Positions 5,304 through 32,255 of a DNA stretch of 32,709 nucleotides are shown one piece after another; within the stretch, counting starts at the first letter, position 1; each line of letters begins with the position of its first letter. Origin of the DNA: an uncultured Oscillospiraceae bacterium (lineage in GTDB: Bacteria; Bacillota; Clostridia; Oscillospirales; Oscillospiraceae). The stretch spans positions 1-32,709 of the forward strand of contig CANQBA010000046.1 in assembly GCA_947589545.1 (NCBI GenBank), in the 5' to 3' direction. The notes beneath the pieces were generated by a model. It made no database searches. It was not told the origin of the DNA and was given only the letters and a program-made list of their open reading frames with translations. Both the position numbers and the translations under genes were made by a program.

Positions 5304-5408
5304 ATGAACAGCACAAACCACTACACGAAACCAGCAAATCAGGTTCGACGAAGGCCCAAGAACGCCCTAACCGCTGTCTCTCCAGTGAGGGACAGACAGG
5401 AGGTTTGA
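5304..5408 (+). CDS. 34-aa leader ORF coupled to the next gene
   Basis: ATG at 5304 follows an excellent AGGAGG (5291-5296) and encodes MNSTNHYTKPANQVRRRPKN plus 14 residues. Its last codons (CAG GAG GTT TGA) form the ribosome site of the next gene, whose ATG at 5410 begins one base after the stop. This geometry suggests translational coupling. No corresponding ORF precedes the second copy of the downstream gene at 28331. No family recognised. Confidence 0.5.
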   Translation: MNSTNHYTKPANQVRRRPKNALTAVSPVRDRQEV

Positions 5409-5409
5409 A

Positions 5410-5697
5410 ATGAGGATTACCATTGAAAAAAGTGCGTCAGGGGATGCGCGGCTCACTGCTGAAATGCTCAGTCAGGCCGGCCTCGCTTGGTCGGACGAGC
5501 TGGAGGCTCACGTCTCCGGGAACGCAATCATCGTCACGAAAAAGCAGATGTCTGCCAACGACCTGCGGGAAGCCATGAGCAGTCTCGTCACTCTTGCCGA
5601 TGAATTCAAGAAGCGCGCCAACGAGATCTGCGCCGGCTGCGACGGGGAGGACTGCCCGTACTTGGAGGACGAGTCGGACGAGGGGGACGGAGAGTGA
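5410..5697 (+). CDS. Small acidic cysteine-containing protein, mobilization cassette copy 1
   Basis: This 95-residue protein of unknown function reads MRITIEKSASGDARLTAEML, then a helical middle (QMSANDLREAMSSLVTLADE), then a compact motif CAGCDGEDCPYLEDE with three cysteines, and a very acidic tail. The three closely spaced Cys could bind metal. A homologue of 97 residues lies at 28331-28624, about 80% identical by eye, in the same position ahead of a mobC-like gene and a relaxase. It is therefore a conserved part of the mobilization cassette, not random sequence. AGGAGG precedes the start. I do not recognise a named family. Confidence 0.75.
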   Translation: MRITIEKSASGDARLTAEMLSQAGLAWSDELEAHVSGNAIIVTKKQMSANDLREAMSSLVTLADEFKKRANEICAGCDGEDCPYLEDESDEGDGE

Positions 5698-5991
5698 AAG
5701 AGATAGACTGAGGGTGCCCTGATGGCCTCACGAAAACTGTGTGGGCAGTGTGTCACTGACTCAGGGTTGAGAGGATGCCGCAATCATCCTCTGCTCCTGC
5801 ACTGACCGTCACTCGAGTGACAACGCCGGCGCATGGATTCAGTACTGAGCACGTGACCCGCTGTCGCGGCGCTGGTCGGCCCGTGTGCTGGTTTCCCCCT
5901 CTGCGTGGGGCGGATGCACCACACAAAATCGGAGCGGCGTGTGAGCCGCTGTCGGGCGAGGTCAAGAGGACGTTTTCAGGCTTTTGGCCCC

Positions 5992-6113
5992 GTTCGATTA
6001 TCGAACAAGATAAAGGGAGGTGGTCGCAAGCGCCCGCCTCCCAGCCACAAAGCCCCGCAGTGCGGTGCTTTTTTGAGCTTCGCCGGGGTAGTCGGTAAAA
6101 ACGGCTGCCCCGG
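5992..6113 (+). other. Candidate oriT / structured leader, copy 1
   Basis: Four consecutive structures occur: GTTCGA-TTA-TCGAAC (5992-6006); a GGGAGG...CCTCCC stem (6015-6042); a terminator-like stem (6049-6074); and CCGGGG...CCCCGG (6083-6113). The same series occurs at 29579-29699. In the second stem the two copies differ at several bases while keeping most pairs. Position directly before the relaxosome genes suggests oriT, a regulatory RNA, or both. No nic site can be assigned from sequence alone. Confidence 0.5.
6049..6074 (+). terminator. Rho-independent-like terminator before the mobC-like gene, copy 1
   Basis: AAAGCCCCGC (6049-6058) pairs with GCGGTGCTTT (6062-6071) with one mismatch around a 3-base loop, and the T run reaches 6074. 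It lies about 120 bases before the mobC-like start, so it may end a short leader RNA or attenuate the mob genes. Confidence 0.6.
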
Positions 6114-6191
6114 CTTTAGGTACACCTTGAAGCCCAAAATGCCGGTTTTGCAGGGCTTTTTGGTGAGTCATACAGCAGAAGGAGGACTACA

Positions 6192-6638
6192 TTGGAAAAC
6201 ACTGAAAACAACAAAGTGAGGACCGCGGTGTGGCTCCGGCCCACTGCCATCGAGGACATCGACCACTGGATGAAACGGGACAACTGTAAAACGCGCAGCG
6301 AGTTCATCGACAACGCCCTCGCGTTTTACGTGGGCTACCTGGAGTCCAACGACGCCTCCAACTTCCTGGGCCCTGTGCTGTCATCCATGATCCGGGGCAT
6401 CTTGGAGAACAACAATAACCGGCTCCGCGCACTGCTGTTCAAGTGGGCGGTGGAGCTGAACATGGCCTGTCACACCATTGCCGCCCACTTTCGGGTGGAC
6501 GACATCGACCGAAAAGCTCTGCGGGCGTTCGCAATAGACGAGGTGAAGAAGACCTGCGGTCGGGTCAGCTTCGACCACGCGCTGGATGTGCAGAGACGCA
6601 TACCCGTGAAGGATGATGATACCAAGTGGCCAAGCTGA
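6192..6638 (+). CDS. Ribbon-helix-helix relaxosome accessory protein (MobC-like), copy 1
   Basis: The 148-residue protein opens with a CopG-type pattern: a short strand VRTAVWLRP, then helices AIEDIDHWMKRDNCKTRSEF and IDNALAFYVGYL. A longer helical part and a basic C-terminus follow. Proteins of this kind bind oriT and help the relaxase. The start codon is TTG at 6192, with GGAGG (6181-6185) six bases upstream; the second copy also uses TTG, so the rare start is conserved. The end overlaps the relaxase start by 13 bases, implying translational coupling. Copy 2 (29777-30220) differs by about three substitutions and one missing Asp. Confidence 0.75.
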   Translation: MENTENNKVRTAVWLRPTAIEDIDHWMKRDNCKTRSEFIDNALAFYVGYLESNDASNFLGPVLSSMIRGILENNNNRLRALLFKWAVELNMACHTIAAHFRVDDIDRKALRAFAIDEVKKTCGRVSFDHALDVQRRIPVKDDDTKWPS

Positions 6639-8611
6639 TTTTCATCTCGCCCTACCTCAAGGGAGGGCAGGACAAGGCCAAGTTAGCGCATCGCACTAAG
6701 TACATCGCTACACGTGACGGCGTGGACCTGCTCAGGTCGGAACGGGGCTCGGAGGCTGCCACTGAGAAACAGCGCGAGTATATCCTGCGGCTCGTCAAGA
6801 CCTTCCCCTCCTCAAAAGATCTGGCGGAGTATGAGGACTACCTCTCCATGCACACCAAGGACGCCGCGTCGGAGTTCATCGACCAGGTGTGGGAGCAGTT
6901 CATCGACTCCATGGACAAGCGTGAGAATTTTCTGGACTACGTCTCCCACCGTCCCGGTGTCCGCAGCGACGGCGACCACGGACTGTGGGATAAGGACGGG
7001 AAGGTGTTGAATCTCAGTAAGGCCGTATCGGAGGTGGCGAATCACCCAGGCGTCGTGTGGACGCCGGTGGTGTCGCTGCGGCGTGAGGACGCGGAGGGGC
7101 TCGGCTACACCGACGTGGACAACTGGAGGGCGCTGGTCAACTCATGCGCCGCCGAGATTGCGAAGGGTTACAGGATACCGCTGGAGCATCTGCGGTGGTA
7201 TGCCGCGCTGCACGAAAAGGAGAAGCACGTCCACATCCACATGGTGGTGTTCTCCTCGAATCCAAAGGAGGGGTATCTCACGAAGGAGGGCATCCGAAAC
7301 ATCAAGTCCGCGTTCGCCACGCGCGTCTTTGAACAGAACCTCTTGCACACCTACGAACGAAAGACCGAGTACAGAAATGCGCTTGGAAAATCCGCGCAGA
7401 TGAGAATGACAGAACTGGTGACCTCTATGAACAGCGGCCCCGCTGTGAGCGAGAGACTGGAACAGCTCATCGGTGAGCTGGCCGAGAAGCTCAAAACTAC
7501 TAATGGTAAGAAAGTCTACGGCTACCTCCCGCCGAGGGTCAAAAGCGTCGTCGACGAGATCGTGGATGAGCTGGCGAAGGACGAGAGTGTCGCGGCGGCG
7601 TACTCGCTTTGGCAGGACATGCAGGACGAGGTGGTGCGCACATACACCGATGACCTGCCGGAGCGCATACCCCTCTCTCAGCAGAAGGAGTTCAAGCCCG
7701 TGCGGAACATGGTGATTCGGGAGGCACTGCGGCTGGCGGAACGCAGGGTCACATTTGAGGATGAGGACATGGACGACGAGCCGGAGAGTACGGAAACAGC
7801 ACCGCCTCCAATCTCCGGCATCCACAAGATCTATGAGCAGGCAGAGAGATACCGCAGAGCGAAGAAAACGCTCTACGATGTGGACGCAGACATGGACGAA
7901 AAGCAATTCGCCATTGATGAGCTACAGAAGCTGTGGGATGAGGGGTACACCATCGCCGCCCATCAGCTGGGTAAGGTGTACCGTGACGGATTGGGCATCA
8001 CCGCCGATTGGGTGAAGGCCGAAGGGTGGTTCAGAAAGTCTGCGGAACGCGGTACCGTCTGCTCGGCCTATGCTCTCGGTAAGCTCCTGCTCCCTATCGG
8101 ACTGTCCACCGAAGCCATCCGCTGGCTCAAATATGCCGCCGACAGCGGTGACCAATATGCCCGGTACACGTTGGGCAAGGTCTATCTCGCGGGGGAAAAC
8201 GCGGAGAAGGATGTGGACACAGCCGTCGAATACCTGAAAGCCTCCGCCGAGCAGGGCAACCAGTACGCCCAATACACTCTCGGCAAGCTCTACCTGCTGG
8301 GCCGGGAGGTGCCGCCTGACAGAGATGCGGCGTTGTACTATCTCACCCAATCGGCAGAGCAAGGGAACAGGTACGCACAATTCTTCCTGGATCACATGAG
8401 CGACATCCGCACCCCGTCCATCGGCTTGGCCGCCCTACGAATGTTCCACCACATGGCGAACATCTTCCGCGACTCCACCGCCCAGGACTCCACCCACATG
8501 GGCCTCCACATTGACCGCAAGCGCCGGCGCGAGCTTCAGGAGAAGCGCGTCGCCATGGGACATAAGCCTGACGACCATGAGGACGAGAAGATGAATCAGA
8601 GTATGAGGTGA
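6626..8611 (+). CDS. MobP-type (MobP3-like) relaxase with C-terminal Sel1-like repeats, copy 1
   Basis: The 661-residue protein starts at GTG 6626 inside the mobC-like gene. The N-terminus (LIFISPYLKGG, TKYIATRDGVDLL) and the metal-binding motif HVHIH at residues 201-205, in KEKHVHIHMVVFSSNP, mark a MOBP relaxase. Such enzymes nick oriT and stay attached to the transferred strand through a tyrosine; Tyr26 in TKYIATR is a candidate. From about residue 440, Sel1-like repeats follow (AAHQLGKVYRDGLG, YALGKLLLPIG, ARYTLGKVYLAGE, AQYTLGKLYLLGRE), a helical protein-binding solenoid. A short basic tail (DRKRRRELQEKR) ends the protein. No type IV secretion or coupling protein is present, so transfer would depend on a helper. 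Copy 2 at 30208-32193 is about 92% identical without gaps. Confidence 0.85.
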   Translation: MAKLIFISPYLKGGQDKAKLAHRTKYIATRDGVDLLRSERGSEAATEKQREYILRLVKTFPSSKDLAEYEDYLSMHTKDAASEFIDQVWEQFIDSMDKRENFLDYVSHRPGVRSDGDHGLWDKDGKVLNLSKAVSEVANHPGVVWTPVVSLRREDAEGLGYTDVDNWRALVNSCAAEIAKGYRIPLEHLRWYAALHEKEKHVHIHMVVFSSNPKEGYLTKEGIRNIKSAFATRVFEQNLLHTYERKTEYRNALGKSAQMRMTELVTSMNSGPAVSERLEQLIGELAEKLKTTNGKKVYGYLPPRVKSVVDEIVDELAKDESVAAAYSLWQDMQDEVVRTYTDDLPERIPLSQQKEFKPVRNMVIREALRLAERRVTFEDEDMDDEPESTETAPPPISGIHKIYEQAERYRRAKKTLYDVDADMDEKQFAIDELQKLWDEGYTIAAHQLGKVYRDGLGITADWVKAEGWFRKSAERGTVCSAYALGKLLLPIGLSTEAIRWLKYAADSGDQYARYTLGKVYLAGENAEKDVDTAVEYLKASAEQGNQYAQYTLGKLYLLGREVPPDRDAALYYLTQSAEQGNRYAQFFLDHMSDIRTPSIGLAALRMFHHMANIFRDSTAQDSTHMGLHIDRKRRRELQEKRVAMGHKPDDHEDEKMNQSMR

Positions 8612-8618
8612 TAAAAAT

Positions 8619-8637
8619 GGCGGGGAATGTCCCCGCC
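8619..8637 (+). terminator. Terminator after relaxase copy 1
   Basis: GGCGGGGA (8619-8626) and TCCCCGCC (8630-8637) form a perfect stem with a 3-base loop, eight bases after the stop codon. The T content downstream is modest. The same structure follows copy 2. Confidence 0.7.
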
Positions 8638-8998
8638 GCTTTCTATAATCCGTTAAAAATGTATCTATTGTCTCATTCACTGATTTTCCAAAAAACCATC
8701 CAGCCGTGACACAAAAAAGCATACAGCCTCCCGCCAAGGGGCAACTGTACGCTTTCGCTGAACCGGGGGGAGGTTCACAGTGCCCCCCCATGAAGGACCC
8801 AGTATAACAGAGAATATAGAACAGAGGAAGAAGTAGAGATCACTCACTTTCATATCTGCTTGCCGGTTGACCATATTGCTTTCTCTGCCCATCAAAAAAC
8901 ATCTGGATGGGAAAAGCGATTCTCCCTTTTGACAATCATATTTCTCTCGACTTTTCCGCCTCTCTGCGATATTGTGTGTTGCCAAAGGGGGACTGAAA
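8638..8998 (+). other. Intergenic region without a supported gene
   Basis: About 360 bases contain no convincing ORF. A short inverted repeat GAACC...GGTTC around a G6 run occurs near 8760. AAGGGGG just before 8999 is the ribosome site of the next gene. Confidence 0.6.
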
Positions 8999-24588: not shown

Positions 24589-24620
24589 GCCGCGCGAGAA
24601 AAGGCTCAAGACAATATAAG

Positions 24621-24779: not shown

Positions 24780-26050
24780 ATTTTTTGACCATAGGGGGTT
24801 ATAATTTTCAAAAAAATTCGGCAATAGGGGAATGTGAGAGTAATTGAAAAGTCTTGACAGGGCAACAGAGGGTGCGCCACGCCCCTATCCGCTTTAAGCT
24901 GGATGAGCACCCGTATCTTTCTTTCAAAAATTTTTTCGGAGAAGGGTTAACTCTGGCGTTTCTTTTGTCCGTTGTAAAGCGAGAGGGAGTGATAGCCCTC
25001 ATGCGCCATACCGGAGAGATATGGTCGAGGAAAACAAAAAATATCTTTATTTTAAAAAATAAGTTCGGTTTTTGCCCCCGTGAGTTGTGGTAATAGAAGT
25101 AGAGAGGTAAACAGCTACTCACTGCTCCTTGGCGATTCACGCTCTCTTGTTTCATCCGAAAAATACTTTCATGGCAACAGTTCAATTCGGGATACGCAAG
25201 CCATTTCAAAAAATTCGGAAATAGGGGGTTGTGGTTTGCGAACAGTTTGTCCGTTGTAAAGTGAAGGGGTGTGATGGCCATTATGCCCGTCCATTTTGCC
25301 GCCGCGCCAACAGGCTCATCAAATTATTTTAATTTTTTTGAAAAATGAGGGCATAGATTTTGAGATTTTTTCACAATAGGTAAGTGTGAGGGCACTTAAG
25401 CGGCATCAATCTTCCTGTTCTGCCCTCTCAAAGTCAAAACACTTCATCGAAAGCCTTCACCGACTGCTCCGCTTCTTTCTTTTTCAAAAAAATTTTTGAA
25501 AGGGGGGTGTGATTTGCGGAAAATTTGTCCGTTGTAAAGTGAAAGGGAGTGATGGTCCTCATACTGTTCCATACGGGAGAGACAAGATTCAAGAAAAATT
25601 TAAAAAAATAATTCCACTTTGAGGCCCTGCGAGTTGTGGTAATAGAAGTAGAGAGGTAAATAGCCACTCACTGCTCTTTGGCGGTTCACCCTTTCCGACT
25701 CCACATTTTACGCGAATTTCCTTTCCGGCAACTCGTTCATCAAAAAATGCAAAATATTTTGAAACAACCCCCTCTTTTGCCTTTGTAAGTATCCGATGGT
25801 AAGTGAGGGGAGTATGCAAGCCTTCACCTGCCCCGTCTCTTTCGTCTTCGAAAAAATTTCGGAGAGGGGGGTGTGATTTACGGATTTTTGTCCGTTGTTG
25901 GGTGAAGGGGCGAAATAATTCCCATGTCGTCCAATACCGAAAAGCAGCGACCAAGATGAATCGAGAAAAAATTTCAAAAATCTCTTGGTCATTTGCGGAT
26001 TTTTCGGGATGGATAATAGAGGGGTAAATTTACCCTCAGGTGTTCTTTGA
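24780..26050. repeat. Array of degenerate non-coding repeats
   Basis: About 1.3 kb of AT-rich sequence with G runs holds four similar cores (starting near 24921, 25203, 25481 and 25846). Each has a TTTCAAAAAATTT-like stretch, a GGGGGTGTGATTT-like stretch, then TTTGTCCGTTGTAAAG (24964-24979, 25246-25261, 25524-25539; shortened to TTTGTCCGTTGT at 25887-25898). A second module, GAGTTGTGGTAATAGAAGTA followed by GAGAGGTAAA, occurs at 25082-25140 and 25631-25689. A degenerate form at about 26012-26050 leads into the structured segment. An eroded fifth core is visible near 24805. I see no supportable gene on either strand. Confidence 0.75.
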
Positions 26051-26077
26051 CAATTTCATATCCGGCAACTGGATAAC
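26047..26077 (+). promoter_or_regulatory. Possible promoter before the structured segment
   Basis: TTGACA (26047-26052) and GATAAC (26072-26077) are 19 bases apart, a suboptimal spacing. A start at about 26082 would coincide with the closing stem of the structured RNA. Confidence 0.4.
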
Positions 26078-26440
26078 TTTAGCGGACGGTCCCCGAAAGG
26101 GACAGCGGCGGGCGGATGCGCCAAGACCTTCCTGTGCAGACTTCTGCATCAAAAGACGGCCTTTAAGGAAGCGAGCGTACAAACCATTCGAACCGCACCG
26201 GCTTTGGCAAGCCGCGCCACGACCCCGTCCGCCTACAATGATACCCCTGCCCAGCCACAGACTCAACCAATGGGGGCAGCTCGGAGAGATCCTCGGAGGG
26301 GTGAGATTCCCGGAGTGTGACGCCAGTCGCAGTTCAGTTGTACGCCCTTGGCTTCGGGAAGTAGTGTCGAATGGAGGCTGTAAGAAGTAAGTATCAAAAA
26401 AACAAACCAAGGGACCACTCTGTGTTCCGGAGTGGTCCCT
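26078..26440 (+). ncRNA. Candidate structured RNA between the repeat array and xis/int
   Basis: GCGGACGG (26082-26089) is exactly complementary to CCGTCCGC (26225-26232), closing a domain that contains four further elements. These are GTCCC/GGGAC (26089-26093 with 26099-26103); GGCG/CGCC (26107-26110 with 26119-26122); a three-way junction; and CGGCTT-TGGC-AAGCCG (26199-26214). The junction is CTTCCT/AGGAAG (26128-26133 with 26166-26171) enclosing TGCAGA-CT-TCTGCA (26135-26148) and AAAG/CTTT. A second domain follows with CTGCCC/GGGCAG (26247-26252 with 26274-26279), ending in the hairpin at 26410-26440. No ORF with a ribosome site is present. I do not recognise a known RNA class. Group II intron domain V is not seen. 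Confidence 0.55.
26410..26440. terminator. Hairpin before xis (attenuator or minus-strand terminator)
   Basis: AGGGACCACTC (26410-26420) and GAGTGGTCCCT (26430-26440) form a perfect 11-bp stem. On the plus strand no T tract follows. On the minus strand a T-rich stretch (GGTTTGTTTTTTT) follows, so it could end leftward transcription or punctuate the structured RNA. Confidence 0.6.
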
Positions 26441-26480: not shown

Positions 26481-26690
26481 ATGAAAAAACAAATTTACCA
26501 CAGCATCGACGACCTGCCCGATTTCTGCACAGTCTCGGATTTCTCTGTCCTCTTCGGCGTCTCACGGGCCACGGCGTACCGCATGGCGGCCCAAGGCAAC
26601 ATCCCGTGTATCCACATCGGCAGACGCGTGGTGATGTCCAGAGAGCATATCCGGCGTTGGGCGGATCAGGCGGCGGGGATGGGGGCATGA
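26481..26690 (+). CDS. Excisionase-type helix-turn-helix protein
   Basis: The 69-residue protein MKKQIYHSIDDLPDFCTVSD carries a MerR/excisionase-like winged helix-turn-helix (VSDFSVLFGVSRATAYRMAA, then IPCIHIGRRVVMSREHIRRW). Such proteins bend DNA at attachment sites and steer the recombinase to excision. AAGGG lies six bases before ATG 26481; an in-frame ATG at 26475 would be too close. It overlaps the integrase start by four bases (ATGA). Confidence 0.85.
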   Translation: MKKQIYHSIDDLPDFCTVSDFSVLFGVSRATAYRMAAQGNIPCIHIGRRVVMSREHIRRWADQAAGMGA

Positions 26691-27940
26691 TGATGTCGAG
26701 AAACGAAAAGGGAACCGGCAGTCTCTATCAGGCCAAGAACAAGACTTGGGTCTATCAATACAACGAGGATGGCAAACGCAGGACCCGGCGCTTCAAGAAA
26801 AAGGCCGAAGCCCGTCTCTTCATTGAGTCCCTCAACAAAGCCAACGCCACTCTGATCTCAAGGGCCTCTATCGCCCCTTCCCCCGCAAGGACAGCCGGCG
26901 TCATTACCGTGGGCGACTGGTTCGACCGCTGGCTTGAGACATACGCAAAACCCTCGGTCAAACTCTCAACCTATTGCAGTTACGAGCTTTACATCCGCGC
27001 CCACATCAAACCCGTGATCGGCGAGAAGTACATGAACACCATCACCGCTGATGAGCTGCAAGAGTTCTTCAACGACCGCGGCGCCAACGGCAACCTCCAG
27101 CGTCAGGGCGGCCTGTCCCCCAAGACGCTGACCAACATCCGCAACATGATGCACATTGCCTTCGACCAAGCACTGAAGAACGGCATGATCACCGTCAACT
27201 TCGTGGAGAGTGTCCGTCTCCCCAAAGCGGAGAAGAAAGAGATGCGCGTCCTGGACCGGGAGGAACAGTCCCGTCTCATCGCCGCGGCCCGTCTCGCTCC
27301 GGAGCCCGCCGCCTTCGGAATCATCTTCGACCTGTTCACGGGCCTGCGGATCGGTGAGCTGTGCGGGCTGAGGTGGAAGAACGTCAACATGGACGACCAC
27401 TCAATAAGAGTCTGCGAGACACGCAACCGTCTACCGAACTTCGACGACACCATAGAGACAGCCACCAGCGTGAGAACCGTGGAGAGCACCAAGACCTCCA
27501 GCTCCCGCCGGACGGTCTACATGACCGACAGCCTCTATAAAGACTTCCAGCAGTACATGAACATCCAGCTCTCCCTCAAAAAGCAGTACCCGTCCTACAA
27601 TCCGGACGGGTACGTGTTCTGCCAGGAGAACGGCGACCCCTACGAGCCGAGGACCTACGAGGACTTGTTCAAGCGCTGCGTACGGCAGGCGGGCATCCGT
27701 GACGCCAACTTCCACGCCCTCCGTCATACCTTCGCTACCCGGAGTCTAGAGCAGGGCATGGACGTGGTGACTCTCTCCAAGCTCTTAGGCCACGCCAACC
27801 CCTCTGTCACCATGGACAAGTACGGCCACGCCATCGACGACCACAAGCGCCAAAGCGTCCAACTCCCGGATGACCTCTACGCCGCCCCGCCCCAGCCGCC
27901 GGACCTGCAACCGTCCCCAAGGATGACCATGGAGTGGTGA
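26687..27940 (+). CDS. Tyrosine recombinase (integrase)
   Basis: The 417-residue integrase has an N-terminal AP2-like arm-binding domain (KGTGSLYQAKNKTWVYQYNE), a SAM-like core-binding domain (about 75-180) and the catalytic domain. All expected catalytic residues are visible: Arg in FTGLRIGELCGLRW, HALRHTFATR (His, Arg), LGHANPSVTMDKYGHA (His, nucleophile Tyr). It is therefore probably active. Three consecutive ATG codons (26687, 26690, 26693) are possible starts. The gene reads toward a tRNA-Met 3' fragment 144 bases beyond its stop, the usual position of an integrase next to its att site. Confidence 0.93.
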   Translation: MMMSRNEKGTGSLYQAKNKTWVYQYNEDGKRRTRRFKKKAEARLFIESLNKANATLISRASIAPSPARTAGVITVGDWFDRWLETYAKPSVKLSTYCSYELYIRAHIKPVIGEKYMNTITADELQEFFNDRGANGNLQRQGGLSPKTLTNIRNMMHIAFDQALKNGMITVNFVESVRLPKAEKKEMRVLDREEQSRLIAAARLAPEPAAFGIIFDLFTGLRIGELCGLRWKNVNMDDHSIRVCETRNRLPNFDDTIETATSVRTVESTKTSSSRRTVYMTDSLYKDFQQYMNIQLSLKKQYPSYNPDGYVFCQENGDPYEPRTYEDLFKRCVRQAGIRDANFHALRHTFATRSLEQGMDVVTLSKLLGHANPSVTMDKYGHAIDDHKRQSVQLPDDLYAAPPQPPDLQPSPRMTMEW

Positions 27941-28083: not shown

Positions 28084-28128
28084 TGGTTGCGGGGGAAGGA
28101 CTTGAACCTACGACCTCCGGGTTATGAG
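28084..28128 (-). other. tRNA-Met 3' fragment, probable attachment-site core
   Basis: On the minus strand these 45 bases read from the anticodon loop (CTCATAA, anticodon CAT) through the T arm (GGTTCAAGTCC) to the encoded CCA, about tRNA positions 32-76. The 5' half of a tRNA is absent on the higher-coordinate side. Tyrosine recombinases commonly use this part of a tRNA gene as the crossover region. The fragment lies beside the integrase and between two identical arm repeats. Confidence 0.88.
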
Positions 28129-28259: not shown

Positions 28260-28330
28260 GGCAGTTGAAAATTTTCTGAGATTTTCTTCGGGTTTTGAAA
28301 TGACACATTACAATGACAAGGAGGTGTGAA

Positions 28331-28624
28331 ATGAAAACTACTATTGAAAAAAGTGCTTCAGGGGATGCACGGCTCACTGCTGAAATGCTCAGGCAAGCCG
28401 GCCTCGCTTGGGCGGGCGAGCTGGAGGTCCATGTCTCCGAGAGCGCGATCACCGTCACAAAAAAACAGATGTCCGCCAACGACCTGCGAGAAGCCATAGG
28501 CAGCCTCACTGCTCTTGCCGCTGAGTTCAAGGAGAGGGCCAACAAGATCTGCGCCGGCTGCGACGGAGAGGACTGTCCGTACCTGGAGGACGAGTTGGAC
28601 GAGGGAGAGGAGGACGGCATATGA
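28331..28624 (+). CDS. Small acidic cysteine-containing protein, mobilization cassette copy 2
   Basis: The 97-residue homologue of 5410-5697 begins MKTTIEKSASGDARLTAEML and keeps QMSANDLREAI and CAGCDGEDCPYLEDE unchanged. Substitutions fall mainly in the middle and in the acidic tail, which suggests the N-terminus and the Cys motif carry the function. AAGGAGG lies before ATG 28331. It is the first gene right of the att region and has no 34-aa leader ORF in front, unlike copy 1. Family unknown; a role in transfer or its control is inferred only from position. Confidence 0.75.
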   Translation: MKTTIEKSASGDARLTAEMLRQAGLAWAGELEVHVSESAITVTKKQMSANDLREAIGSLTALAAEFKERANKICAGCDGEDCPYLEDELDEGEEDGI

Positions 28625-29578
28625 AAGAGACGAGCTGAGCGCCAAAAATCCGAGACCGGATTGGTGTGCTGACGGGAGGACAGGCCGAGGAGAGAATCTG
28701 AGAAACGGCCTCTTGAGATTGCGGATTGGGGAGCAGTCCTGCCTCGTCATGTTCTCCAATAGATGTACGGTGGTTCGGAAGAAGGTTGCGCGGAGACGCT
28801 GGAGACAGTCCCGTGGCATGGCAGTCAAAATATCACTCCTCTGCCGTGTCGGTGACAGAGACGTCCCGTGTTTCTCACAAGGCTACGAGGTTACCGTCAG
28901 TCAACACCATGCTGGAAGTACATCAGCGCGCTGAGGGTACCGAGATGGACCTGACGGAAGTTGTGAGGACGGCGCGTCACTGACTCAGGGACGTGAGGAC
29001 GCGGTGCTCATCCCTCTGCGCTACTTTTCTGAGTCAATGTCGCTGACGCACTCCACTACACCGTGACGGTGAGCAAGGACGGAGAGGATAACTGGCTCCT
29101 CCGCGCTGACATGGTTCAGTCTGCCCCCTGCTATGTCAGCGGGTCGGGTTGTCTCTGTGAAATGTAGACTCGCATACAACGGATGCTCCGTGCTCCCTGT
29201 GAGAACAAAAGGCTACCACCAGCAGGCGTCCCCCTGTCTTGGTGGGTCACCACTCATCCTCTGCGTCTGCACTGCCTACATCTCGAATGACAATGGTGTG
29301 GATGTGCAGGTGGTGTGGATCAGTCGTCGCTCCGAGGAGAGCAGCGCAATCAGACGGAGGAGCCACAAAAGAAATTCTGCGCGAGCGTGTGTAAAAACCG
29401 AGGGGCGTGACGGCGGCGTATGGATTCAGTACAGAACGCACAACCCGCTGTCACGGCGCTGTTCGCCCCGTGTGCCGTTTTCCCCATCCGCGTGGGGCAG
29501 GCGCACCACTCAAAACAGGAGCGGCGTGTGGGCCGCTGTCGGGCGAGGTCAAGAGGACGTTTTTGGGCTTTTTGCCCC

Positions 29579-29699
29579 GTTCGATTATCGAACAAGATAA
29601 AGGGAGGTGGTCGCAAGCGACCCCTCCCGGCCACAAAGCCCCGCAGTGCGGGGCTTTTTTGAGTTTCACCGGGGTGGTCGGTAAAAACGGCTGCCCCGG
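29579..29699 (+). other. Candidate oriT / structured leader, copy 2
   Basis: Elements in order: GTTCGA-TTA-TCGAAC (29579-29593); GGGAGG-T-GGTCGC paired with GCGACC-CCTCCC (29602-29628) with one bulged T; a perfect terminator-like stem (29635-29660); and CCGGGG/CCCCGG (29669-29699). Order, spacing and position before the mobC-like gene are the same as at 5992-6113. Confidence 0.5.
29635..29660 (+). terminator. Rho-independent terminator before the mobC-like gene, copy 2
   Basis: AAAGCCCCGC (29635-29644), loop AGT, GCGGGGCTTT (29648-29657) and continued T to 29660: a textbook terminator that would end a leader RNA about 115 bases before the mobC-like start. Confidence 0.85.
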
Positions 29700-29776
29700 T
29701 TTCAGGTGCACCTTGGGGCTGAAAACGCCCGTGGCACAAGGACTTTGGCTGTGTCACGGGCAGAAGGAGGACAATA

Positions 29777-30220
29777 TTGGAAAATACTGAAAACAACAAA
29801 GTGAGGACCGCAGTGTGGCTCCGACCCACTGCCATCGAGGACATCGACCACTGGATGAAGCGGGACAACTGTAAAACGCGCAGCGAGTTCATCGACAACG
29901 CTCTCGCGTTCTATGTGGGCTACCTGGAGTCCAACGACGCCTCGGACTTCCTGGGCCCGGTGCTGTCGTCCATGATCCGTGGAATACTGGAGAACAACAA
30001 TAACAGACTCCGCTCCCTCCTGTTCAAATGGGCGGTGGAACTCAACATGGCCTGCCACACCATCGCCGCCCACTTCCGGGTGGACGACATCGACCGCAAG
30101 GCCCTCCGGGCGTTCGCCATAGACGAGGTGAAGAAGACCTGCGGTCAGGTGAGCTTTGACCACGCGCTGGATGTGCAGAGACGTATCCCAGTGAAGGATG
30201 ACACGAAGTGGCCAAGCTGA
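29777..30220 (+). CDS. Ribbon-helix-helix relaxosome accessory protein (MobC-like), copy 2
   Basis: This 147-residue protein is almost identical to the copy at 6192-6638 (three substitutions and one missing Asp near the C-terminus). It has the same TTG start, with AAGGAGG upstream, and the same 13-base overlap with the relaxase. The near identity contrasts with the more diverged relaxases and small proteins of the two cassettes. This may reflect stronger constraint or local gene conversion. Confidence 0.75.
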   Translation: MENTENNKVRTAVWLRPTAIEDIDHWMKRDNCKTRSEFIDNALAFYVGYLESNDASDFLGPVLSSMIRGILENNNNRLRSLLFKWAVELNMACHTIAAHFRVDDIDRKALRAFAIDEVKKTCGQVSFDHALDVQRRIPVKDDTKWPS

Positions 30221-32193
30221 TTTTTATCTCGCCCTATCTCAAGGGAGGGCAGGACAAGTCCAAGTTGGCGCATCGCACCAAGTACATCGCCACACGTGAC
30301 GGAGTGGACCTGCTCAGGTCGGAGAGGGGCTCGGAGTCCGCCACAGAGAAACAGCGGGAGTATATCCTGCGGCTCGTCAAAACGTTTCCTCAGTCGAAGG
30401 AGCTTGCGGAGTACGAGGACTACCTCTCCATGCACACCAAGGACGCCGCGTCGGATTTCATTGACCAGGTATGGGAGCAGTTCATCGACTCCATGGATAA
30501 GCGCGAAAACTATCTGGACTACGTCTCTCACCGCCCCGGTGTTCAAAGTGACGGCGACCACGGACTGTGGGATAAGGACGGGAAGGTGCAAAATCTCAGT
30601 AAGGCCGTATCGGAGGTGGCGAATCACCCCGGCGTTGTGTGGACGCCGGTGGTATCGCTGCGGCGTGAGGACGCGGAGCGGCTCGGCTACACCGACGTGG
30701 ACAACTGGAGGGCGCTGGTCAACTCCTGCGTCCAGGAGATAGCAAAGGGTTACAGGATACCGCTGGAGCATCTGCGCTGGTACGCCGCGCTGCACGAAAA
30801 AGAGAAGCACGTCCACATCCACATGGTGGTGTTCTCCTCCAATCCGAAGGAGGGCTATCTCACCAAGCAAGGTATCCGGGACATCAAGTCCGCGTTCGCC
30901 ACGCGCGTCTTCGAGCAGGACCTGCTGCACACCTACGAGCGGAAGACCGAGTACCGGAACGCGCTTGGAAAGTCCGCACAGGAGAGAATGGCGGAGTTGG
31001 TGACATCCATGAACAGCGGCTCTGCTGTGAGCGAGAGGCTGGAACAGCTCATTGGCGAGCTGGCCGAGAAGCTCAAAACCACCAAGGGCAAGAAGGTCTA
31101 CGGTTATCTGCCGCCCAGGGTCAAGAGTGTCGTCGACGAGATCGTGGACGAGCTGGCGAAGGACGAGAGAGTAGCGGCGGCGTACTCGCTCTGGCAGGAT
31201 ATGCAGGACGAGGTGGTGCGCACCTACACAGACGACCTGCCTGAGCGTGTGCCGCTCTCCCAGCAGAAGGAGTTCAAGCCTGTGCGGAACATGGTGATTC
31301 GCGAGGTGCTGAGGCTCTCCGAGCGCAGGGTCACATTTGAGGACGGGGACATGGACGACGAGCCGGAGAGCGCGGAGACAGTACCGCCTCCAATCTCCGG
31401 CATTCACAGGATCTATGAGCAAGCCGAGAGATACCGCAAGGCGAAGAAAACGCTCTACGATGAGGACGCCGACATGGACGAAAAGCGGTCCGCCATTGAA
31501 ATGCTGGAGCGTCTGTGGGATGAGGGGTACACGATTGCCGCCCATCAGCTGGGTAAGGTCTACCGTGACGGGTTAGGAGTACCCGCTGATTGGGTGAAGG
31601 CCGAGGGATGGTTTCGGAAATCCGCGGAGCAGGGAACAGTCTGCTCTGCCTATGCTCTCGGTAAGCTCCTGCTCCCTGTCGGCCTGTCCACCGAGGCCAT
31701 CCGCTGGCTCAAGTACGCCGCTGACAGCGGCGACCAGTACGCCCGTTACACGTTGGGTAAGGTCTATCTCGCTGGGGAAAACGCGGAGAAGGATGTTGAT
31801 GTAGCCATCGATTACCTGAAAGCATCTGCCGAGCAGGGCAACCAGTACGCCCAATATACCCTCGGCAAGCTCTACCTGCTGGGCCGGGAGGTGCCACCTG
31901 ACAGAGAAGCGGCGTTGTATTATCTCACACGGTCGGCGGAACAAGGAAACCGCTATGCCCAATTCTTCCTGAACCACCTGAACGACATTCGCACCCCGTC
32001 AGTCGGTCTGGCGGTGCTTCGGATGTTCCACCACATGGCAAATATCTTCCGCGACACCACCGCCCAGGACTCCACCCATATGGGCCTGCACATCGACCGC
32101 AAGCGCCGGCGCGAGCTTCAGGAGAAGCGCGTCGCCATGGGACATAAGGCGGACGACCGTGAGGATGAGAAGATGAATCAGACGATGGGGTAA
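30208..32193 (+). CDS. MobP-type (MobP3-like) relaxase with C-terminal Sel1-like repeats, copy 2
   Basis: This 661-residue protein has a GTG start inside the mobC-like gene and is collinear with copy 1; I count about 53 substitutions and no gap. The motif KEKHVHIHMVVFSSNP and the N-terminal TKYIATRDGVDLL are unchanged. Differences cluster before and inside the first Sel1-like repeat (EKRSAIEMLERLWDE versus EKQFAIDELQKLWDE) and at the end of the solenoid. Both copies look functional, so two relaxases of slightly different partner preference may coexist. A terminator hairpin follows. Confidence 0.85.
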   Translation: MAKLIFISPYLKGGQDKSKLAHRTKYIATRDGVDLLRSERGSESATEKQREYILRLVKTFPQSKELAEYEDYLSMHTKDAASDFIDQVWEQFIDSMDKRENYLDYVSHRPGVQSDGDHGLWDKDGKVQNLSKAVSEVANHPGVVWTPVVSLRREDAERLGYTDVDNWRALVNSCVQEIAKGYRIPLEHLRWYAALHEKEKHVHIHMVVFSSNPKEGYLTKQGIRDIKSAFATRVFEQDLLHTYERKTEYRNALGKSAQERMAELVTSMNSGSAVSERLEQLIGELAEKLKTTKGKKVYGYLPPRVKSVVDEIVDELAKDERVAAAYSLWQDMQDEVVRTYTDDLPERVPLSQQKEFKPVRNMVIREVLRLSERRVTFEDGDMDDEPESAETVPPPISGIHRIYEQAERYRKAKKTLYDEDADMDEKRSAIEMLERLWDEGYTIAAHQLGKVYRDGLGVPADWVKAEGWFRKSAEQGTVCSAYALGKLLLPVGLSTEAIRWLKYAADSGDQYARYTLGKVYLAGENAEKDVDVAIDYLKASAEQGNQYAQYTLGKLYLLGREVPPDREAALYYLTRSAEQGNRYAQFFLNHLNDIRTPSVGLAVLRMFHHMANIFRDTTAQDSTHMGLHIDRKRRRELQEKRVAMGHKADDREDEKMNQTMG

Positions 32194-32206
32194 ACGGGCA
32201 AAAAAT

Positions 32207-32225
32207 GGCGGGGAATTTCCCCGCC
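32207..32225 (+). terminator. Terminator after relaxase copy 2
   Basis: GGCGGGGA (32207-32214), loop ATT, TCCCCGCC (32218-32225), then GTTTTC: the counterpart of 8619-8637. Confidence 0.75.
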
Positions 32226-32255
32226 GTTTTCAATAATCCGGTAAAAATATATCTC

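Follow-up and report, generated by a model that had tools for sequence, protein, structure and literature searches.

A conserved RNA in front of xis and int

In a 32,709-nucleotide stretch of DNA from an uncultured Oscillospiraceae bacterium (contig CANQBA010000046.1 of assembly GCA_947589545.1; below, the window), the segment preceding an excisionase and an integrase gene holds the sequence of a folded RNA, conserved over about 330 nt, with the known, unexplained pemK RNA family at its centre. In most relatives the RNA is directly preceded by a close match to boxA, the signal by which rRNA transcription is sustained, which suggests that mobile elements borrow it to control integrase and maintenance genes.

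The core of the RNA (26235..26314; all features are on the plus strand unless stated) was found by cmscan, the check proposed in an earlier sequence-only reading. It matched Rfam family RF02913 (pemK RNA, type Cis-reg) with 55 bits (E 1.9e-7), above the gathering cut-off of 34.8 bits, and it lies 5' of the protein-coding xis-int pair on the same strand. Between positions 24600 and 26500, searched at E values up to 10, the other Rfam families gave only matches far below cut-off, and no match to catalytic RNA families was obtained at E up to 10. The sequence-only reading had regarded the whole segment as unrecognised; because the core belongs to a known Rfam family, this now applies only to the approximately 250 nt around it. 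The Rfam model has 61 positions, and conservation around the core spans about 330 nt. Family membership was already known; the new parts are a 5' multi-helix domain with a kink-turn pattern, a strongly covarying 3' stem and a boxA-like lead. On its letters, the core loop GGG-UGAGAUU-CCC resembles a T-loop. Weinberg et al. 2017 is said to be the original description of pemK RNA. Among the papers listed in literature searches the phrase 'pemK RNA' was found as the name of a benchmark set, with nothing else on the RNA, and none of the titles and abstract openings listed linked boxA to it; the supplement of the original description may hold parts of what is reported here.

The RNA is followed by a gene for a small xis-like HTH protein (26481..26690; Pfam HTH_17, 5.5e-11) and a tyrosine integrase gene (26687..27940; Pfam Phage_integrase, 3.3e-30). 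Beside int there is a partial tRNA-Met gene on the minus strand (28085..28128, tRNA identity assigned by eye), which is a likely attachment site. ARAGORN found no tRNA in the whole window; the second genomic copy of the RNA (L005) has a longer tRNA-like sequence. On the upstream side lie sugar-utilisation genes (GH43, GH2, MFS transporter) and an array of degenerate, leader-like direct repeats (24780..26010), whose copy number varies among the copies in the genus. The array consists of GTCCGTTGT units, missing from L011, L015 and L026, and of units in which a hairpin is joined to TGCTCYTTGGC. The window also carries two mobilisation modules (5398-8666 and 28319-32254), 86-88% identical and encoding a MobL relaxase with Sel1 repeats; the second lies shortly after the attachment site on the int side, an arrangement like that of tandem elements. 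The plasmid records searched contained no match, the phage records two unannotated faecal matches (68-73%), and the viral contigs searched one.

A coding function of the region was rejected: in two of 13 genus loci (the window's copy among them), L002 and L014, no frame stays open across it, in agreement with the earlier statement that no gene explains the segment. The lengths of the genus loci differ by amounts that are not multiples of three, and minus-strand frames are open across the region in many of the 13.

Covariation in the 5' domain

The RNA between 26060 and 26450 folds with a predicted energy of -139.6 kcal/mol (z -1.89). Since 3 of 100 dinucleotide shuffles were equally stable, the single-sequence fold is weak evidence, and the case therefore rests on relatives. 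The flanks inspected in these have a common architecture on both sides of the core. Flank, motif and swap analyses used 62 loci (the window, L005 from its own genome and L061-L120, hand-picked), of which L089, with its short upstream sequence, was dropped from the boxA and kink-turn counts to leave 61 family loci. The locus sets were not dereplicated and contain near-identical pairs such as L109/L151, L164/L165 and L156/L157. For alignment, 24 (5' part, leaving out L061 and L070) and 25 (3' part, leaving out L159) of 26 hand-picked window-like loci were used. In the swap test, which is free of alignment, the strands of a locus paired better with each other than with strands swapped between loci.

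The domain is closed by stem P1 (26082..26089 with 26225..26232), the perfect 8-bp long-range helix that had been read from the window. Across 24 sequences both partners have changed in 7 of its 8 pairs, and it exceeded 95% of swaps in 21 of 47 loci. Between boxA and P1 lies the conserved segment CATATCC (26057..26063), whose ATATCC is invariant in the 24 aligned sequences. Within P1, the 5' strand GGATG of P2 (26114-26118) pairs with 26185..26189, and all five pairs changed on both sides. Counted together over the 24 sequences, one of which is the window's, P1, P2 and the CGC/GCG stem inside P2 gave 98.2% standard pairs. Both partners had changed in 12 of the 16 pairs, and the covariation score was 0.583 as compared with 0.243 after shuffling; none of 500 shuffles reached the observed score. 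The number of further pair types in this set was not outstanding (161 of 500 shuffles reached the observed value), and the CGC/GCG stem, invariant in the 24 sequences, shows no covariation. When partner strands were slid, pairing fell to 26-44%, a comparison that favours the drawn structures, here and in the 3' part, as they were drawn from the same sequences that were scored.

Kink-turns are built from a C stem, a 3-nt bulge, tandem G.A/A.G pairs and an NC stem. The sequence of P2 contains this series (CGC-CAA-GA / GA-GCG): the CGC ends the segment 26114..26121, the CAA bulge, GA and the start of the NC stem follow at 26122..26132, and the 3' strand (26167..26177) reads GGAAG, C, GA, GCG. A match to CGCnnnGA..GAGCG is present in 42/61 family and 21/30 phylum loci, where shuffling gave means of 2.9 and 0.7, and in 0/58, 5/60, 0/28 and 4/29 control windows. 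Judged from its letters, P2 may adopt kink-turn geometry, and an L7Ae-like protein such as YlxQ, which is encoded near nusA, might bind it.

In the MAFFT alignment P3, the NC stem and the apical hairpin of P2 are partly misaligned; they were therefore left out of the counted 5' structure, as was the small hairpin P1b. For the NC stem the swap test was used instead, and it surpassed 95% of swaps in 10 of 36 loci. In P1b (TCCCcgaaaGGGA, 26090..26102), which has four pairs, standard pairing holds in 17-19 of the 24 rows for three of them and in 9 for the fourth. The apical hairpin TGCAG..CTGCA (26135..26148) is replaced by a different hairpin, still paired, in the second genomic copy, and the stem of P3 (CGGCTTTGGCAAGCCG, 26199..26214) differs in relatives. 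From the window alone a three-way junction had been proposed at 26128-26171. Its outer stem and the TGCAG/CTGCA hairpin were retained; the third helix, AAAG/CTTT, was rejected, being lost in relatives with GACGGCCAAATAAGG.

The 3' domain and the terminal hairpin

In a hairpin downstream of the core (26316..26331) both partners have changed in all 6 pairs and 75.5% of cells are paired; it surpassed 95% of swaps in 21 of 59 loci. The next element, the 3' stem (26351-26355/26374-26378, spanning 26351..26378), did so in 33 of 49; its inner four pairs are formed in 100% of the cells and changed on both sides, with C-G/G-C and C-G/U-A exchanges, and the outer pair is formed in 84%. For core, hairpin and 3' part together, 94.1% of cells were paired in 25 sequences, 23 of 30 pairs had changed on both sides, and the covariation score was 0.447 versus 0.199 in shuffles (reached in 0 of 500); for further pair types 16 of 500 shuffles reached the observed value. 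Slid partners were paired in 38-53%. Compensatory changes, the check proposed in the earlier note, were found in P1 and P2, in the core and in the hairpin and stem 3' of it, and the claim of a structured RNA is confirmed by comparison with relatives.

CCC at 26345-26347 can pair with GGG at 26356-26358 (26345..26358), crossing the 3' stem. This pairing is kept in 96% of the cells with no double change, which is why the H-type pseudoknot that it would form is put forward only as an inference from sequence. The 3'-loop match is absent in 12 of 62 family loci, and two more (L076, L117) look false. L071, L080, L117 and L163 form a subtype that has no 3' domain and continues into an xis-like gene; their upstream regulators presumably resemble those of Tn916-type elements.

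Immediately before xis the window contains a strong hairpin (26410..26440) without a T-tract. Its existence had been noted earlier with a length of 11 bp; the actual length is 13 bp (26410-26422/26428-26440). Across the family, a hairpin with a T-rich tail occurs 60-330 nt past the core in 59 of 91 loci, compared with 11-19 in six rounds of shuffling. By eye, the terminator-like hairpin of L109, L083, L107, L153 and L158 seemingly has an outer helix of the type TTAATG...CATTAA around its U-rich side, unusual in a plain terminator.

A boxA-like element precedes the RNA

The sequence TGTTCTTTGACAA at 26041..26053 is a boxA-like element conserved in place; the consensus across loci is TGYTCYTTGAMAA. 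The pattern YTTGAMAA was found before P1 in 51/61 family and 27/30 phylum loci, as against shuffle means of 3.9 (max 9) and 2.3 (max 6), and in 2/58, 3/60, 3/28 and 6/29 control windows 600-870 nt away. A strict match is missing in 10 of the 61 family loci. Two letters outside the search pattern are also conserved, a G at -4 (73/78) and a C at -1 (71/78). A pattern search of named genomes yielded 15 loci (Oscillospiraceae, Flavonifractor, Hydrogenoanaerobacterium and others), and 12 of the 14 with enough upstream DNA have the motif; at least one of the named loci, L139, agrees in length and place with a contig of the family set. L138, from the cultured relative Flavonifractor sp. An306, carries both boxA and the kink-turn pattern.

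A similar motif precedes 23S rRNA in relatives, which were used because no rRNA match was found in the window's own genome. In the 8 of 12 rRNA loci examined, from five genomes, CTTGAAAACTGAACA was present 170-200 nt before 23S rRNA in all eight and CACCTTGAAAACTGAACA in five, the stretch being defined by its distance to 23S rRNA only. The boxA of L101 and L113 matches the 23S-side motif nearly letter for letter; that of the window agrees with ..CTTGAAAACTGAACA at the level of the consensus, the letters not being identical.

Directly 5' of boxA, at the boxB position of rrn leaders, the sequence can form a hairpin with G-rich and C-rich arms (26019..26037). The G-rich 5' arm was detected in 39 of 78 loci, as compared with 6.8 after shuffling, and the hairpin showed weak covariation, 13 of 75 loci beating 95% of swaps.

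The same place had been read as a possible promoter ending in front of the closing stem; judged by its sequence, it is better read as boxA. TTGACA as a -35 box was rejected: a -10 hexamer lies 15-19 nt from TTGAMA in 2 of 81 loci, where 9 are expected. The search for a promoter upstream of boxA found none: -10-like hexamers occurred 20-110 nt away in 24 of 78 loci, no enrichment over the 21 in shuffled sequences.

Distribution and neighbouring genes

According to the tallies of the tool, 104 of the 300 genomes sampled in the window's family carry RF02913 (102 above cut-off), as do 26 of the 398 sampled in its phylum, with one to seven matches per positive genome. The window's own genome has three, and two further contigs of it break within the 5' part of the RNA. 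At L006 and L007 (contigs C54 and C109, both with a sigma-like gene upstream) the contig breaks inside the RNA, which indicates that the genome probably has more copies than were assembled. Two pemK RNAs stand in tandem on the same strand in L179 (G030:C11) and L180 (G130:C1:775455-775947).

Upstream neighbours were defined as the longest same-strand ORF ending at most about 600 nt before the core, which 82 of 92 loci possess. Among these ORFs 38 had Sigma70_r4_2, 33 Sigma70_r4 (overlapping assignments), 9 HTH_3 and 4 HTH_16 domains. In the genus a sigma-like gene was present in only 5 of the 18 sequences searched (L006, L007, L011, L013, L015); none was found upstream in the window with a hand-picked query set, and the leader-like repeat array takes its place.

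Downstream, 109 same-strand ORFs included 22 with Resolvase, 18 with PemK, 15 with HTH_17 and 8 with Phage_integrase domains, none of which was found in 68 opposite-strand ORFs; both sets were trimmed by hand from lists of 182 and 195 (163 in a further list) and are unequal per locus. By similarity to exemplars, an ORF like a recombinase, PemK, Xis, integrase, ParA or ParB follows in 54 of 73 loci and none in 19, the classification covering 73 of 91 loci. Outside xis-int loci the next genes are those for serine recombinase, PemK, ParA or ParB-like proteins. Whether the RNA is always upstream of xis/int had been posed as a check, and it is not: xis follows in 14 of 19 aligned genus loci (in two with an altered start codon), is not next in L011, L013, L015 and L024, and one further locus is cut by a contig end.

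Proposed function and alternatives

The order of parts, regulator gene, hairpin, boxA, folded RNA, terminator-like hairpin and recombinase gene, fits an antitermination leader. We give about an even chance to the reading that the RNA is the leader of the element's xis-int operon, in which boxA antitermination and the folded RNA control read-through. Transcription would start upstream of the short G-rich hairpin and then cross boxA, and a folded RNA of roughly 330 nt would be made, with the P1 domain and its kink-turn, the pemK core and the 3' pseudoknot. Host NusB-S10 would bind boxA and RNA polymerase would become a terminator-resistant complex of the rRNA type; the folded RNA, made while the complex is tethered, may help or gate read-through of the hairpin or terminator before xis, so that xis and int would be made only once the leader is properly assembled. 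PMC12691694, PMC10250234, PMC7862264 and PMC10931766 describe, from Gram-negative data, that NusB-S10 bound to boxA renders polymerase resistant to termination on rRNA operons and that boxA serves CRISPR arrays; the first three treat this antitermination, of both rRNA and CRISPR arrays, in Gammaproteobacteria. Against the model count the lack of a promoter signal, the missing T-tract of the window's terminal hairpin, a review's statement that the uS4 part of rrn antitermination is Rho-specific, and the report of PMC10250234 that rrn boxA was dispensable for E. coli growth in the test used there.

A wider version is offered more tentatively, and we rather doubt that it holds in full: processive antitermination RNAs would include a new class built around pemK RNA, combining a boxA of the host rRNA type with a kink-turn/pseudoknot scaffold of about 330 nt and a promoter served by the element's sigma-like factor, and switching recombinase, toxin or partition genes, perhaps also genes past the attachment site after circularisation.

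It is unlikely, on our assessment, that boxA only protects a long untranslated leader and helps it to fold, while pemK RNA itself, as an attenuator or a sensor resembling a riboswitch, determines whether transcription ends at the next hairpin. The frequent hairpin with a T-rich tail (59/91 loci) and the 3' stem adjoining the terminal hairpin speak for such a device, and a kink-turn pattern with a multi-helix core would suit a leader that binds a ligand or protein, but the downstream genes are mixed (recombinases, PemK, ParA), hence one metabolite is not suggested. A small RNA that stands alone, ends at a terminator of its own and acts in trans, such as to control copy number or exclude sister elements, would account for the terminator-like hairpin in many loci, the tandem RNAs and the up to seven matches per genome. 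We hold this to be improbable: in L071, L080 and L117, which have no 3' domain, the xis-like gene starts 81-192 nt past the core, so the RNA would be the mRNA leader of that gene, and recombinase, PemK and Xis domains are on the RNA's strand and absent from the other.

The chance seems slim that TTGACA at 26048 is a -35 box, as the sequence-only reading had it, with the RNA starting at the closing stem and no boxA involved. In the window the spacing to P1 does suit a start near 26082; in addition to the shortage of -10 hexamers described above, this reading is opposed by hairpins between TTGAAAA and CATATCC in several relatives and by the conservation of TG..C in front of the TTGA motif. A self-acting ribozyme or mobile RNA appears more improbable still. 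Large folded RNAs in mobile elements, with tandem copies, could be taken that way, but catalytic families gave no match at E up to 10, and in 54 of the 73 classified loci the RNA precedes a gene for a recombinase or for maintenance. Of the three functions first suggested for the segment, the regulatory leader is best supported and the protein-less mobile RNA is unsupported; the general picture of a structured non-coding leader 5' of xis/int stood, and its lack of recognition and its promoter did not.

These results extend the structure of a common orphan RNA family, set its boundaries and give it a mechanism that can be tested. Should boxA prove functional, mobile elements in this phylum would be using the rRNA transcription machinery to control integration, excision and maintenance. 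Element mobility would then be tied to growth, and the system could serve as a model of how antitermination complexes work in Gram-positive bacteria, described in the abstract of PMC12691694 as previously not investigated.

Comparison with known systems

The core of the window shares the three stems of RF02913 and passes its gathering score; the Rfam model ends at 61 positions, whereas boxA, the P1 domain with its kink-turn pattern, the hairpin and the 3' stem/pseudoknot are conserved around it here. EAR, put and conAn are RNAs in operon leaders that act on polymerase, and the same location, with a proposed action on polymerase, applies here; none of them matched the window in the Rfam searches, the contrast being drawn from those searches and not from direct comparison. 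In the lambda nut sites, too, the operon leader of a mobile element contains boxA plus a hairpin, but there the hairpin is downstream of boxA, whereas in the pemK leader the putative hairpin is 5' of boxA and a large extra RNA follows; we know of no N-like protein for this leader. Before CRISPR arrays (Stringer et al. 2020, as cited in later papers) boxA also favours transcription of a long non-coding RNA, in that case one with no fixed structure. The leaders of rrn operons, with their order boxB-boxA-boxC, have a hairpin and then boxA before a long untranslated folded RNA, an order that the pemK leader resembles with its putative hairpin and boxA-like motif, and the boxA consensus is shared with the motif before 23S rRNA in relatives; in the window, the boxA letters differ from that motif, and the leader runs into a recombinase or maintenance gene instead of rRNA.
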